A DNA stretch of 64,000 bases from Daphnia pulex (lineage: Eukaryota > Arthropoda > Branchiopoda > Diplostraca > Daphniidae): positions 5,447,001 to 5,511,000 of the forward strand of contig NC_060026.1 of NCBI RefSeq assembly GCF_021134715.1. Reading direction: 5' to 3'. The position numbers were made by a program, and so were the translations under genes. Below the pieces are notes generated by a model. The model was not told where the DNA came from, made no database searches, and saw only the letters and a list, made by a program, of their open reading frames with translations. This document shows positions 38,221-48,602 of this stretch, in pieces (the stretch's first letter is position 1; the number at the start of each line of letters is the position of its first letter).

Positions 38221-39300
38221 ATGTACTCTAGACCTAGATCAAGTATTGGTGGCACCAATGGTGAGAAACGGAAACGTACACTTAGTGTACAGAACAATAG
38301 CCAGAATTCTCTGACCGACATGTCGAGAGAAGACATGATAATATACTAATAAAGGATTTAAAAGAGGAAAGAGAGACGCTCATTCAAGAGAAAGAGTGCA
38401 TTATCAGTCATACTAAAGAGATAGAAAGTGAGCTAACCAGCATCAAGGTTAAAATTGCAAATAGGTTCTTGAATGGGTTATTCGGTGATGGGCAGCCGAC
38501 TAAGGAGAATGAGCCACCTAGTGGAATGGACTCGCAGCTAGGTAAATCCTATGCGGCAGTGGCCTCGAAGTCGGTCACCATCATTGCTAAGCTAGATCCG
38601 GATGTGGACACGAGCAATTTTATCGGTGATGCTATGGATGAGTTCTTTAAAAGTAATTCGGAGTATCTGACGCTGCAGTCTTTCACTAAGAGAGACAATA
38701 TAGCTCGGTTTAAGTTTAATAACGACGCTGATGCCAAAAAGGCTAAACAGTTAATGGAAGCGGATGGAAAAATAGAGGCGTCCTTAAAATCTGTTTCAGA
38801 ACGCAAAATAGAGTACCCGATAGCAGTCTTCGGGACTGGGATAGAGAATCTAGAGGTTCTTAAAAAAGAGATGGAGTTTAGAAATGAAATATTACGTGGT
38901 AAAATTAATAGAATCAAACCGCTCTCGAATTAGAAAGGACACGTCAAAGATTTATGGCACATTCAAAAAGTGTGAAGAAGCAGTAATCCAAGCTAGGAAA
39001 ATATCAGTTAAAAATGCCGCAGGTGAGTTAAAAGAGAATAGAGTAGAAAAAGCTAAACTGGATTTTGAGGTGACGTATTGTTACAAATGTAAAAAACTGG
39101 GCCATGTCACGTTTAAATGCACAAACAAATCGGCAGCAGAAATCTGTGACCGGTTCGCAGAGTCGCACAAAACACAAGACTGCATCCATCCAGACAACAA
39201 GATGAAATGCGTGAATTGCAAAGGTGCACACAAATCGGGTGACTTTCAATGTTCAGCGCACATTAAGGTGGTGGATAGACTGAGACAACTCTTAGCCTAA
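38221..39300 (+). pseudogene. LINE ORF1, Gag-like with zinc knuckles (frameshifted)
   Basis: The frame opens with MYSRPRSSIGGTNGEKRKRT and breaks near 38345. It resumes with a charged coiled-coil segment (LKEERETLIQEKECII) and an RRM-like region (SVTIIAKLDPDVDTSNFIG onward), then shifts frame again near 38930. The last part carries CYKCKKLGHVTFKC and CVNCKGAHKSGDFQC, Cys/His knuckles characteristic of nucleic-acid-binding ORF1 proteins of jockey and I clades. At least two frameshifts inactivate it. Confidence 0.8.
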
Positions 39301-39303
39301 AGT

Positions 39304-40107
39304 ATGAATCACAATAACAAATCACTTTCATGTTTACAGATTAATCTGCAGCACTGTAAAGTAGCATCCTTAAACCTGAGTCAAGTTTGAGTAGAGCTAG
39401 ATATTGACATAGCGTTAATTCAAGAACCTTACGCCATAACCAATAAATTTAATAATGAGTTACTTATACCAAATATTCCTAGTAATTATACGGTTCATCA
39501 TAACTTAAATAAAGAACATGCTTTTGGTGCAATAATTCTGGCTACAAAATTTCTTATGGCTGTAAATATAGCAGTGCAAAACCTAAATAATTGTGTAGGA
39601 GTCCATTTAAACAAATACCCTGGTCTAAACTTTTTCTCTGTATATTGCCGACCGTCTCTGAGTCTAGATTATTTTTTGAATCTTATAAAGACTGGTCCTG
39701 ACTTAGAGCGGTCTGTATAATAGGCATGGATTCTAACGCAAAAAATAAGTTATGGAATAGTAAGTCTACGGATAAAAGAGGTGAGTGTCTGGAATCATTT
39801 ACTGACCAAAACAAGTTAAATATAGCAAACGTTCCTGTTTCCAAATTAGAATACATTCCCCAGATAACAGCGATGGTGGACGTCACTCTCAGAGGTGATA
39901 ATACCAATATTTCAAATTGGCATTTTCCCAACGAGAACAGTCACTCTGATCATCCGATCATTCTGTTTCAAGTGGCTGTGAAACAACCAAAGCGTAGTAC
40001 AGTAAGTAAAATAGTGCCAAGAGTAAAAAACATAGATAAAATGAAATGTCTTGCTAAGTTGGAAATTAAAGTTAAAAAAAATAGAAGATCAATTACCACT
40101 AATTAGT
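39304..40107 (+). pseudogene. LINE ORF2 apurinic/apyrimidinic-like endonuclease domain
   Basis: The region begins MNHNNKSLSCLQINLQHCK, with the LQINLQHCK start typical of jockey/R1 endonucleases. It continues through IQEPY, MDSNAKNKLWNS and SDHPIILF (the catalytic SDH). An in-frame stop follows SLNLSQV (about 39390), and frames change near 39720 and in the poly-A run near 40075. The endonuclease would nick the target to prime reverse transcription. Confidence 0.8.
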
Positions 40108-43370: not shown

Positions 43371-43602
43371 CAATTTTACGATAGCGTCAGAAGATCTGAC
43401 TAAAGGTTCTTTCCCACAGCTGGGGCAATCAATTTTGTTCCTTTCAAGCACTTGGTCGTCAATATTATGTCTACAGGTTTCCCATTCAATTTTACGATAG
43501 CGTCAGAAGATCTGACTAAAGGTTCTTTCCCACAGCTGGGGCAATCAATTTTGTTCCTTTCAAGCACTTGGTCGTCAATATTATGTCTACAGGTTTCCCA
43601 TT
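43371..43602 (+). repeat. 116-bp perfect tandem duplication inside the KDZ transposase
   Basis: The 116 bases from 43371 (CAATTTTACGATAGCGTCAG...) recur from 43487 without visible difference. Because 116 is not a multiple of three, the duplication shifts the frame within the CPSCGK exon. Identity of the copies points to a recent event or an assembly artefact. Confidence 0.85.
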
Positions 43603-44780
43603 CTCTTTCTGCAGTAGTAAATAATGTTACATTTATTGGTCCATTCTGTAAGAACCAAATTTTTAGAATCACGTGCATACAAAACAGGACCTTTTATGTA
43701 ACATACCCGGCCATATTCTGTTGATACTTCTTCAAGAGAATGTGCATACATTTTTTTTGAAGACCCAGGAGACTTATGAGTAATGTGGTGTCCTAGAAGA
43801 AGTGCCTCTTCTGCAAAAAGATAGGTGACATTTGGCGATAAACTTCCAGGGAAAAATCCAGAAAATACATAGTCATCGATTGTGGCTCTTGTACGAGAGT
43901 TGCAACTATCACAAACGAAAGCTTCAGCTTTAACGAGAAATCGACCTTTGAAGTGTTTTAGAGGATTCAAATATTTTATTGTACAAGATGTATCAATATA
44001 AGTATTACCACTCTCATTGACCACCACGATTGATTCTTGAAGATTTGGAATGAGTAACATCGATCCTTCGCATTCGACATTGTAACACATATGAAGCATG
44101 GAACACATACGCCCAGGTAGCACAGCCCATCCCCTGGATGTCCATTGGATATCTGAACATCTGATTTCCGTCCAGGTCCCAATGGACGTAATCTAGACGT
44201 TGCTCGGAGATATCCCTTGGATAGACCATTCTTGGATGTCCAGTGGACGTAAATCTTAGATGATAAAAGGATAGTAATCTATATAATAGAATTACGTCCT
44301 GTAGATATCGCCTGGATGTAAAGTTTGACCACCTAATGTTTTCGCCCCGTGCTCTAAAAAATTTTTCATAACAAAAAGCTAAAAATAATGTATGTCATTT
44401 ATCTCAATCAATTACAATGAATTGAATATAAGAGGGGAAAAATAAAATAGGTTAGAATGTTTCTCCAAGTAAACTGTATTTCTTAATATCTCATAGTTGC
44501 AACATGATTACATCAAAAGAAAAGTTTAATACATGTTCACTTCGTTTCTTATGGATATAACAGCAAATTTGTCGACGTCAGAACTATTAATTGGAATTTT
44601 CGCAGCTTGAAATTTTATAAAAGACAGTGGAAAAGCCAAAAGACAAGTAGACAAATCGTTTTCAGTCACAAAAACCTCTCCTACAATTCGGGAAGGCGCC
44701 GGATAAATAAACAGGTAATTGTATGTGGAATATTTACTGCCGATGACAAAAACTTGGCCGTCGCGGTCTTGAACAAAGTT

Positions 44781-46052
44781 TTAACCGATAAAGACAGACA
44801 TATCGTTCAAAATTACACAGTTATCAGGCACTTTTGTTCTCAATGTGAAGTAACCGAATTTTACTCTACGATATTGCTTTCCAAATAAAGCTGGCACTAA
44901 CGGTCCCTTACGATGCTTACCAAAGAGAAGAATGGTTTGTTCGGGATTTTTCTTCTTCTCTCGATGTTTAACAGTTTGAATCTCACTTAAACGTTTTACT
45001 ACTGTAGGGAGTGGCTTTGAACTCTTTTTACATAACGTTTTTAATATCTGTAAAAAGTTTTCAAAGGGATAACATGTAATTGTGTCAATGGAACCATAAG
45101 TTGTGGCTTCTTGAGCTAAATGAGTTAAACATTGAACATTAAAAGAGACGAATTTCTTGCCATACAACGTTTTTGATTGATGAACAAATAGTTTGAGAAT
45201 CTTGTCAGCGTAAGAAATCATTTCTGGCAGTCCACTCAAGTCAGGGTCTGACAAGATTCTGGTACCATAGTGAAATAATAAAAAATGTTGGTACAATTAA
45301 TTAATTAATCACTTTTCCATTCAAAATAACCCCGTTTGTCTCTAGAAATTTAACTTCCCTTACAAAATCTTCCAGGAAAAAATTTACATCGAGGGGCTTA
45401 CTTGTCCCCTCGAAGATGCCAATCACAATAAAAGGCTTCGCCCCATCAATGTTTCTTAACAATCCCAAAATAGGCCAGAACTGACTACGCGAACTTTTAT
45501 AGAGTGGGATGCCGTCAACATTAACACACAACTCTATACAAAGTGGAATTTGTTGAGGGGAAAGAGAGTTTAGAAATTCGAACAGATATTTTATCAAACC
45601 AAAATGGAAGTAATGTCCCGGAGGCATTTCTTTTAATGTTACTTTACCCTGAGTTTTTAATAGCGTTCGATAATCACGTGGAAGGAAAGATAAATCAAAA
45701 TGGGGACGAATGCATTTCAACAACTTCCCCACATGAACCCTTGGAATATTCGATTCCACAACCCAATGGCCCAGAGTTCGGAGAAGTCGTCCTGTTTTTT
45801 CTTCACTTCATCTTCCAGACCATTTTCACTTTCACTGCTTGACCAATCAATGTTTTTAAACAAATTTTCGTTGGAACCATAGCAAGAGTTCTGTGAATCA
45901 CTATCATACAACGATAAGTACGAATCAACGTCACTTTCTTCATCTACTGGCTCAGAACTGTCACCGTCGTCCATTGTCAACACAGCTTCAATACCGGGAA
46001 CATTGTAAACTTCACAGTCACTTAAATGATTCATACTGGAAGAGCAATTCAC
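44781..46052 (-). pseudogene. 'Transposase domain-containing' protein of the nested element (broken)
   Basis: The minus-strand frames, in order, are: an acidic N-terminus (46052-45740, DDGDSSEPVDEESDVDSYL); a conserved part (45759-45301, SNIPRVHVGKLLKCIRP ... LPRDYRTLL ... MPPGHYFHFGL ... VNVDGIPLYKSS.SQFWPIL); and a C-terminal part (45296-44781, KKFVSFNVQCLTHLAQEA ... CYPFENFLQILK). These match a large family annotated in arthropods and cnidarians as transposase domain-containing proteins, whose superfamily I cannot name. A one-base frameshift lies near 45755. A central part, which in the family contains cysteines and other conserved residues, is missing at about 45300. The copy is inactive. 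Confidence 0.75.
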
Positions 46053-47131
46053 TTCCGGTTGAATGGAAGATGATGCAGCTGCTATGTTCGGTTCAGCAAC
46101 AACTTCATCAACAAGATAAATCCTTTCAAGCGTAGCCCTAATGCGCTTTTGCTACTGTCTCAGACTGACAACAGCCTTGCAGCGAGAATTTACTCTAGGC
46201 ATGCTTGTAAAGATGATATTCAAATTGGTCTCAATGTAGCAGTACAGTTGATACACAGTCCCACTGCACTGTCACTTCAATGTCGTGAAAATGTGGAACT
46301 ATGTACGATGCCTGTGTACCACCACCTATTTGAAATTAATAATAACAGGTGAAAATCCATTTACTCGCAATCAGTTTTATCTCATTCACCTTCAGCTGTA
46401 ACTCTTGTGTTAAAAAGTGGCTCGAATTAGCAGAAAGCAGCAGCAACATGGGACGTAACAAAGCCTGGCCACAGTTTGTCTCTGACGATACCTTTAACAG
46501 GTAAACAGAAAGTTACACACACATAAAATAGCAATATATGAAAAAAAGTCTCACCTATTTCGTCTGTGGTAAAAATTTACACTGTTGACATTTGTATAGT
46601 CCCCAAACGCAGCTGAATCGCAAATTGTCGACCACTAATAATACAGGGAGTGAGTATCTACTACCACCTATTTAAAATTGAAAGTAACAGGTGAAAAAAT
46701 TAATGAACTCGCAATCAGTTTTATACCAATCACCTTTTCGGCTGCTGCTTGTGTGATAAAGTGGCTCAAATCAACAAGTCTCATCAACAGACATAACCAA
46801 TCCACACATGTTGCCAATGAGTGCTGGTGTATCTAGAAATCTGAGAGTTAACGGTATACAATTTTTACGCAATCAGCAATGATTGTTGTATCATTGGTAA
46901 TATATAATAGTTTTTTTGTGTATCCAGCCCATTTGACTACCAGAGGTTCAGGAATGTCTTTTTCGGCTTATTTGGAACTGCCAAATGACAGTATTAGGGG
47001 TTCAAATGTGAAGAAATTCTACGACGTATTGAAATAGTTGCATTCAAAAATGAAAATTTACCCTCCCAGTGTAGCCTACAAGTGTTAAAAATATATAACT
47101 GCATTTTTACTTTTTTGCAACATGTAACCAG

Positions 47132-47748
47132 AATCAATTGCAGCACCAAAAAGATCTTGAGCAATTGAAAAATCAGGCCCGACCAAATGGTACTATTAAC
47201 CACCCTACTGTCACTGAAATACAAGGACTACCGTTGCAGACAATGGCAGAACTGGAACGTTATGAAATTTCCTTGAGGGACGAAGAAGTTAGACGCCAAT
47301 TAGTAATTTGAGAATTATTTTACATAACTGTCTGATGTTCACAAATTCTTTTATTTCTCCTCTTCCCCCAGGTTGACATGATATCCTCAATTGGTGGTAA
47401 CGGGTTTAAAGATGCGATTGAACGCGCACTGGATGCTGTGGCATCTGACAAAGTTCTGCGTGATGTCAACTGGCTTGGCAGAAAAAGGAAGGAAAAACAA
47501 AAGAAAGGATGCCATGACATGCTGTTCATCAAATCTATTCTTGGTATAATAAATTTTCCTATTTGTAATATTTGTTTTAGTTTACACGTTCAGCAACATT
47601 TATTTTTGTGGTTTGTTGTGTAGAAGGGGTCAGAAAGCAACCTGAATTTGAGGATGTGGTTCGTCACAACAACACGGTGTTTCAGACCCATGTCAAGAAT
47701 TGGTTGCGGCACGCTCCTGCAAGAGCTTCGAATTTGACAGAAGAATAA
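47132..47748 (+). CDS. DUF4806-containing protein of the nested element (3' exons)
   Basis: Three exons are supported: 47132-47302 (KDLEQLKNQARPNGT ... LERYEISLRDEEVRRQL), 47372-47543 (VDMISSIGGNGFKDAIERAL ... RDVNWLGRKRKEKQK) and 47624-47748 (EGVRKQPEFEDVV ... LRHAPARASNLTEE, stop 47746-47748). The IGG..F..AI.R.L ... NW.GR..K pattern is that of DUF4806, a domain often found beside transposase-like genes in arthropods. Exons further 5' (46.4-46.9 kb) are likely but I could not fix them. It diverges from the transposase-domain gene and may be an accessory DNA-binding protein (inference). No lesion is visible in these exons. Confidence 0.7.
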
Positions 47749-48543
47749 TCTCAAACGTCTTTCTTATTTATTTTTTCCACTGATTTCTTGAAGTTCTTTC
47801 TTTTTTTATGATATTTTCCACTAAATTAAAAGAAATGTTTGCTCCCTTTCCTACATTGTTTATTCCCCAATTCTGTTCACTTATACTTAAAGCAAAGATG
47901 CTTGAATTTGTAATTTATTTTTAAGTTTCATAATTTTGTTCCATTCAATTGTTAGAGTAAATACAATTTTATTTTCGAAATATTCTTGTAGTTTATGAAA
48001 TATCCGCTGGGAGCGTACGATGAATGTAATATCCTGCAGGCATAAAATTCGTTAAAAAATTAGATGTCTTCAGACGTCTAAGTAACGTCCAGGCTACATC
48101 CAGCTGGATATCCAAACAGATGTCTCACGTATATCTCATTTTGATGTCATACGTAGCGACATTTGGATTATCGCTGGATGTCCAAGGGACATAACACTGG
48201 ACGTCGAGTTCGTCTGTCAATCCATCTCCTAGATATCCAAGGGATATATCTGTGCTACTTGGGACATCTTTAAAATATAAAAAACTTGAAACAAAGCTGT
48301 CTGAACAATTCGATTCTTACTTCCATACCTTTTATTATAATGTTGCCCTTGGGATCGATGAAATGTTCTGGTAGCAAAATTTGCAATGTGTCGGAAGAAC
48401 ACAAGAATCGTCGGTGAAATGGCATAGTTAAATGAGAGCCTGTATCGCACTTGTGACAGAGATGTTTCTTGCAAGTCATGCATCTTACAGCAGCAGCATT
48501 CAGGTGAAGATGACACTGATCACAATTGGAATGATATGATATG

Positions 48544-48602
48544 ACTCCCATTGTCCCCATCACTTCCACGAATTTTGTGGTCATAATGGGGACAATGGGA
48601 GT
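48544..48602. repeat. 59-bp hairpin with perfect 17-base arms
   Basis: ACTCCCATTGTCCCCAT at 48544-48560 is perfectly inverted at 48586-48602 around a 25-base loop. It abuts the 115-bp repeat copy 2. It lies at the 5' edge of the KDZ transposase reading frame. Confidence 0.8.

Follow-up and report, generated by a model that had tools for sequence, protein, structure and literature searches.

At positions 44112-48263 of a 64,000-nucleotide stretch of the Daphnia pulex genome (NCBI RefSeq assembly GCF_021134715.1, contig NC_060026.1, positions 5,447,001 to 5,511,000 of the forward strand; this whole stretch is the window below), a transposase-like gene and a gene for a DUF4806 protein stand back to back within a single transposon copy. 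The locus raises the question of which kind of transposon carries such a pair, and what the DUF4806 protein might do for it. We consider it reasonably probable that the unit is a dead copy of a two-gene animal CACTA (TRC) transposon, with the DUF4806 protein as the candidate binder of the subterminal sites and the counterpart of plant TnpA.

The copy measures 4152 bases, starts CCCAGGTAGCACAG and finishes CTGTGCTACTTGGG. The initial annotation had proposed that the ends bracket exactly two divergent genes, and the exact repeats now placed at 44112-44125 and 48250-48263 enclose precisely these: a transposase gene on the minus strand, whose pieces span 44544-45801, and a DUF4806 gene on the plus strand, with exons at 47129-47748. 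The features of the element are the following.

44112..44125, plus strand: left terminal inverted repeat CCCAGGTAGCACAG, exact.
44112..44331: left subterminal region with 4 GGAYRTCC-like sites (at most 1 mismatch) and 5 GAYRTC; neither count was reached in 500 dinucleotide shuffles.
44544..45296, minus strand: transposase C-terminal part, DUF4218-like, with one internal stop; open frame 44781-45296 (frames and Pfam).
45297..45306, minus strand: deletion junction, where about 176 residues of the relative L052 are missing (alignment with L052).
45301..45759, minus strand: transposase N-terminal part with a DG(I/L)P...FWP(I/V)LG stretch, open frame (frames and alignment).
45717..46052, minus strand: acidic stretch in another frame, probably the transposase N-terminus; frame break near 45780 by eye (open frames).
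47129..47302, plus strand: DUF4806 exon A, the first that could be recognised in this copy (Pfam and relatives).
47372..47542, plus strand: DUF4806 exon B, with the DUF4806 core; intron 47303-47371 placed by GT..AG (Pfam).
47626..47748, plus strand: putative DUF4806 exon C with stop, after a further predicted intron (open frames).
48044..48263: right subterminal region with 4 GGAYRTCC-like sites (at most 1 mismatch) and 8 GAYRTC; neither count was reached in 500 dinucleotide shuffles.
48250..48263, minus strand: right terminal inverted repeat, CCCAAGTAGCACAG when read on the minus strand, exact.

We take this copy to be inactive because its transposase gene has frame breaks and has lost those central residues, which in L052 numbering are 328-472 of the N-piece and 1-31 of the C-piece; the lost stretches include CDAPA, CxxC and DPMHL.

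Central to our interpretation is whether the two genes travel together. The genome searched comprises 133 Mb in 13 contigs, and all relatives compared come from this Daphnia pulex genome alone. The DUF4806 exon matches 13 places at E up to 1, the window included. Of the 12 others, three have a listed transposase relative no more than 10 kb away and, in each case, divergently oriented; random placement reached this number in 15 of 20000 trials and exceeded it in none. The list combined 65 of the 69 places matching the window N-part (four second pieces of a listed place were dropped) with 24 of the 95 places matching the L052 N-part, hand-picked away from the first set, each query being included in its own count; L072, whose transposase pieces neither list contains, did not enter the count of pairs. 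Two of the three pairs were read in sequence (L053 and L071), and the third, C12:1446840/1454045, 7 kb apart, is known from positions only. Among these pairs, C7:5700796(-)/5703563(+) and C12:2243509(-)/2246243(+) have transposases 40% identical to that of the window, in the same divergent layout. L053 has its transposase on the minus strand, DUF4806 on the plus strand, GGAYRTCC-like sites and a right end CCCTACTAGCACAAG, the left end being doubtful; L071 has DUF4806 on the plus strand, GATATC sites and a right end ..TTCTACTTGGA, with no left end recognised and a transposase 55-76% identical to that of L052. L052 itself has a left end, CCCTAGTAGAACACGATATC, inside copia-like sequence (by eye) and a weak exon A remnant on the expected side (E 0.02). 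Relatives repeat the succession of exon A, apparent intron and exon B (partly by reading). The partnership is thus supported as exceeding chance but not as universal, and the earlier proposal that the DUF4806 gene travels with the transposase gene holds to that extent.

The element ends are further marked by clusters of one symmetric motif. Between them, 3712 bases hold a single GGAYRTCC at up to one mismatch, and the shuffle means for the ends are 0.59 and 0.35. GAYRTC occurs 5 and 8 times per 220 bp at the ends against 0.17 in the rest of the window, and 200-bp stretches with at least four copies are confined, in the whole window, to the two ends. All five GGATRTCC of the window likewise lie within the ends, their total being in itself not unusual (shuffle mean 2.23; 5 reached by 11 of 100 shuffles). 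The ends had been described as packed with palindromes; this stands for GGAYRTCC/GAYRTC at both ends but not for palindromes in general, as 6-bp palindromes number 5 at the left end (3.9 in shuffles, reached by 99 of 300) and 7 at the right (3.8, reached by 24 of 300). GGAYRTCC is also enriched at the ends of L053/L070 (7) and L072 (5), with 0 of 500 shuffles reaching each count.

These ends recur across the genome. CCCARGTAGCACAG has 10 exact sites genome-wide, compared with 0 for the backwards-read control pattern, and the left 219 bases give seven matches including the window copy, the six others at 85-88% identity. One of these, L049, has lost its right tip, and another, L016, extends on the right past the sequence covered. 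Copies with the same ends and no DUF4806 gene, which the initial annotation had named as counter-evidence, do exist, but the four read tip to tip (L047, 658 bp; L048, 706 bp; L015, 699 bp; L050, 758 bp) carry neither gene. The motif clusters are retained in gene-less derivatives. The window family and its relatives share the end consensus CCC(A/T)(A/G)(G/C)TAG(C/A)ACA.

Judged by sequence, the transposase is best placed with the TRC elements, the animal branch of the CACTA superfamily, since it has a DUF4218-like C-terminus, homology to a Transposase_21 protein of the same genome, and CCC ends like those of Tribolium TRC. The C-part of L052 matches DUF4218 at 27.3 bits, just above the Pfam cut-off of 27; in plant CACTA elements, DUF4218 goes with tnp2 transposases. 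The Transposase_21 protein is that of L085 (38.6 bits against a Pfam cut-off of 28.6), which aligns with both L052 parts (blastp 8e-13 and 3e-16; hhalign probability 97.9). From this family membership, the enzyme would be of the DDE kind.

A start with CCC has been proposed as a rule for animal TRC elements, and the Tribolium end CCCTAGTAGCACC is near-identical to those found here (PMC1636069, in part). The elements covered there (SmTRC1 of Schistosoma, Tribolium, Aedes) are also alike in having 2-bp duplications in some copies and a transposase related to Transposase_21 proteins; a DUF4806 partner, a divergent layout and GGAYRTCC arrays are absent from the text of PMC1636069 compared. Plant CACTA elements (En/Spm, with TnpD and TnpA), so far as PMC8195511 was consulted, resemble the window element in having two proteins, a transposase that is here of the tnp2 kind by kinship, and short repeats clustered just inside both ends. 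They differ in that the tips here are CCCAGGTAG/CCCAAGTAG, with CCC instead of CACTA, the second protein is DUF4806 rather than of the Transposase_24 type, and the genes are two and divergent rather than overlapping transcripts. A search for TnpA itself (PF03004, Transposase_24) gave 0 matches in the genome, but 14 control genomes were equally silent, so that its absence from the genome is not shown. The L052 transposase part gave 2 pattern matches in viral contigs, neither confirmed, and searches of solved-structure sequences returned 0 matches. PIF/Harbinger elements also have two genes, a transposase and a Myb-like DNA-binding partner, the transposase being of a different family.

The second gene had been regarded as encoding a domain without known function, a description that is now outdated: DUF4806 is described as a BEN-type DNA-binding domain (Pan et al. 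2023, as cited in the part of PMC11075544 consulted). In the window, exon B taken by itself matches DUF4806 (PF16064) at E 9.8e-5, with 23 bits against a cut-off of 25, and seven of the nine exon B stretches in alignment A1, the window's included, match singly at E up to 0.1 (best 2.8e-6). A place at C11:6211292 exceeds the cut-off (31.1 bits) and was the sole find of the family search, which missed the window's own gene. Among BEN proteins, Insv binds the palindrome TCCAATTGGA as a homodimer (PMC6911014, in part) and NAC1 binds ACATGT (PMC7764960, in part). The window gene is like the DUF4806 subtype in its domain and in the symmetric DNA sites near it, and is unlike it in being part of a transposon; its candidate site is GGAYRTCC as opposed to CCAATTGG and ACATGT. 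The L053 DUF4806 stretch sought in viral contigs gave 5 pattern matches, none confirmed. No tie between DUF4806 and transposons appears in the portions of PMC7642931 and PMC11075544 covered, and wider literature searches do not show that such a tie is absent.

In the model that we favor, the transposase of live copies, encoded on the minus strand, would cleave the element at its CCC ends and reinsert it, duplicating 2 bp of the target. The BEN-type DUF4806 protein, encoded on the plus strand, would attach in dimeric form to the symmetric sites grouped within the terminal 200 bp on either side, these being GGAYRTCC in the window family. By doing so it may pair the two ends and direct or steady the transposase, and possibly also act as a repressor of the promoter region that both genes share. 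The accessory role in transposition that the initial annotation had suggested for DUF4806 would, on this model, be the job of TnpA done by another protein; in plant CACTA elements, TnpA binds subterminal repeats and is required for transposition (PMC8195511 and PMC1636069, each in part).

Several results weigh against this model. The window's own protein matches lie below their Pfam cut-offs (DUF4218, E 1.5e-4; the DUF4806 pieces, E 3.5e-4), and no direct Transposase_21 match is present in the N-parts of the window, L052, L051, L053, L054 or L071 (Pfam). The structure model of the transposase is poor (predicted local distance difference test, pLDDT, 43), and the DUF4806 region, read through its intron, gave an all-helical model of low confidence (mean pLDDT 60). 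GGAYRTCC itself is not enriched at the ends of L071 (1; 49 of 500 shuffles) or L052 (0), whereas its core GAYRTC is (2 at L071, 6 of 500 shuffles; 3 at L052, 0 of 500), a pattern from which we take the core to differ between subfamilies. By eye, these cores are GGATRTCC in the window family, GGACGTCC and GGATATCC in that of L053 and a derivative on C2, and AGATATC and kin in that of L052/L071. DUF4806 genes outside the ends in most copies had also been named as counter-evidence, and here the result is divided: three of the 12 other places are paired, and nine have no listed transposase within 10 kb. Among those nine, L055 (8.5 kb) and L073 (7 kb) show no transposase piece in the stretch, and L072 has unlisted transposase pieces with DUF4806 sharing a strand with some of them. 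A weak DUF4806 match at L039 (E 0.001) lies on the same strand as its transposase piece. At L051, a transposase is accompanied by an end with 3 GAYRTC in 220 bp, and the 3.2 kb on that side contain no DUF4806; the transposase relative L054 has no DUF4806 in the stretch examined. L054:5-6355 lies between inverted-repeat arms that reach 88 nt, and GAYRTC is absent from its outermost 220 bp at both sides.

The target-site duplication bears on the model in both directions. The initial annotation had proposed to check whether the ends and the duplication length are constant. The CCC start seen in the window and its relatives has exceptions in L015 (ACC..) and L050 (CCC../..GGA), and a 2-bp duplication is found in only one of five window-family copies (L048, AG). 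It is absent from L047, L015 and L050, and none is readable at the window copy (CG on the left, AC on the right). Related families have one in three of three cases (C7 TC, C12 AG, C2 TA), each of the C7 and C12 cases being assumed to be one element because its ends face each other, at distances of 1035 and 1335 bp, with the interiors unread. All told, four of the eight copies with both ends read have identical 2 bp, where chance would give half a copy in eight (1/16 each); for SmTRC1 of Schistosoma the figure is 7 of 14 (PMC1636069, in part). Duplications of 3 or 4 bp were considered by eye and rejected, as they occur in 0 of the eight.

An alternative that we hold to be unlikely, though the strongest of those weighed, casts DUF4806 as a regulator: by binding the end sites or the promoter common to both genes, it would repress transposase expression or bring in chromatin factors, leaving the transposase alone to pair and cut the ends. 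Drosophila BEN-solo proteins do act in repression and insulation (PMC6911014, in part), and maize Spm TNPA is reported to act on the element promoter (PMC1636069, in part). Both genes point outward, which places both site clusters beyond their 3' ends and outside the promoter region between them; end recognition thus fits better than promoter control. That the clusters survive where the genes are gone suggests, together with this layout, a need for them in transposition and not in gene control alone.

Less probable again is that the GGAYRTCC arrays are bound by the transposase and that DUF4806 has a different target. The present results do not tie the sites to one protein or the other, the N-terminus of the transposase is long and rich in acidic residues, the L071 N-part has a weak HTH_Tnp_Tc5 match below cut-off (E 0.038), and L051 combines sites and transposase with no DUF4806 in the stretch examined; as against this, the transposase pieces searched hold no DNA-binding domain above the Pfam cut-off, and it is DUF4806 that is described as a DNA-binding fold (PMC11075544, in part). 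That DUF4806 is a captured host gene travelling as a role-less passenger seems to us the least likely, for while most DUF4806 places lack a listed transposase nearby and plant CACTA elements often capture gene pieces (PMC8195511, in part), the same divergent pairing is seen again beside transposases that share about 40% identity with that of the window, and exons A and B recur together with their apparent intron.

The unit had also been said to interrupt another transposon, and this is borne out by its flanks, which are parts of one KDZ-transposon gene.

43587..44111, minus strand: host KDZ-transposon gene, CxC3 part, on the downstream side (Pfam CxC3 match and paralogue L088).
48270..48602, minus strand: the same host gene, upstream zinc-binding part (B-box-like matches below Pfam cut-offs).

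The left flank matches CxC3 of KDZ transposases at E 1.3e-27 (96.3 bits against a Pfam cut-off of 26.6); its protein has 23 genome matches, and the two loci examined are the window itself and L088. That the element sits inside the KDZ gene is seen from L088, where sequences homologous to the right and the left flank follow one another on the same strand, separated by 214 bases. A DNA-level empty site was sought with the KDZ flank and the window alone matched, so that proof of the interruption rests on this protein-level paralogue. Elsewhere in the window, open frames at 38469-40106 with a CCHC-type zinc-knuckle pattern and an endonuclease-like stretch look like the remnant of a non-LTR (long terminal repeat) retrotransposon (by reading).

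Further copies illustrate the variety of the group. L057:1017-1984 is an internally deleted window-family copy in which DUF4806 exon A and the start of exon B, 94.9% identical in DNA, adjoin the right end; no left end was found there. G000:C2:8687782-8688518 (L078, L084) is a 737-bp gene-less element with 14 exact GGAYRTCC and a TA duplication, and six genome places, itself included, match the query end at identical score, which suggests a recent burst. L001:1501 and L002:1514 share the same 14-base end with different inner sequence (CAATTTGATATG in L001) and are probably a further subfamily. L072:468-3940 has an end at 468, a transposase C-piece on the minus strand, and more transposase pieces and DUF4806 on the plus strand, as in a rearranged or nested copy. 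L053 and L054 have weak Pfam matches to DUF1258 (E 0.21 and 0.0084). L085:345-2624 (G000:C8:6103844-6106123) has an uninterrupted frame for a Transposase_21 protein of 759 residues, and a place at G000:C7:6379177 equals it in score and frame length; the two are possibly a young CACTA-type element or a domesticated gene.

Which protein stands in for TnpA in animal CACTA-type elements is left open in the text of PMC1636069 consulted, and at this locus a named DNA-binding family, with a candidate site, sits in that position. It is tempting, if tentative, to extend this to the possibility that the second protein so far missing from animal CACTA-type transposons is of the DUF4806/BEN type, and that many lineage-specific DUF4806, perhaps BEN, transcription factors of animals descend from such genes and keep their dimeric binding of symmetric sites. 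Such elements may then be a source of the abundance of DUF4806 in two Hydra species (counts of 69 and 54; PMC7642931, in part) and of the four zebrafish-specific DUF4806 genes on the sex chromosome (PMC11075544, in part).

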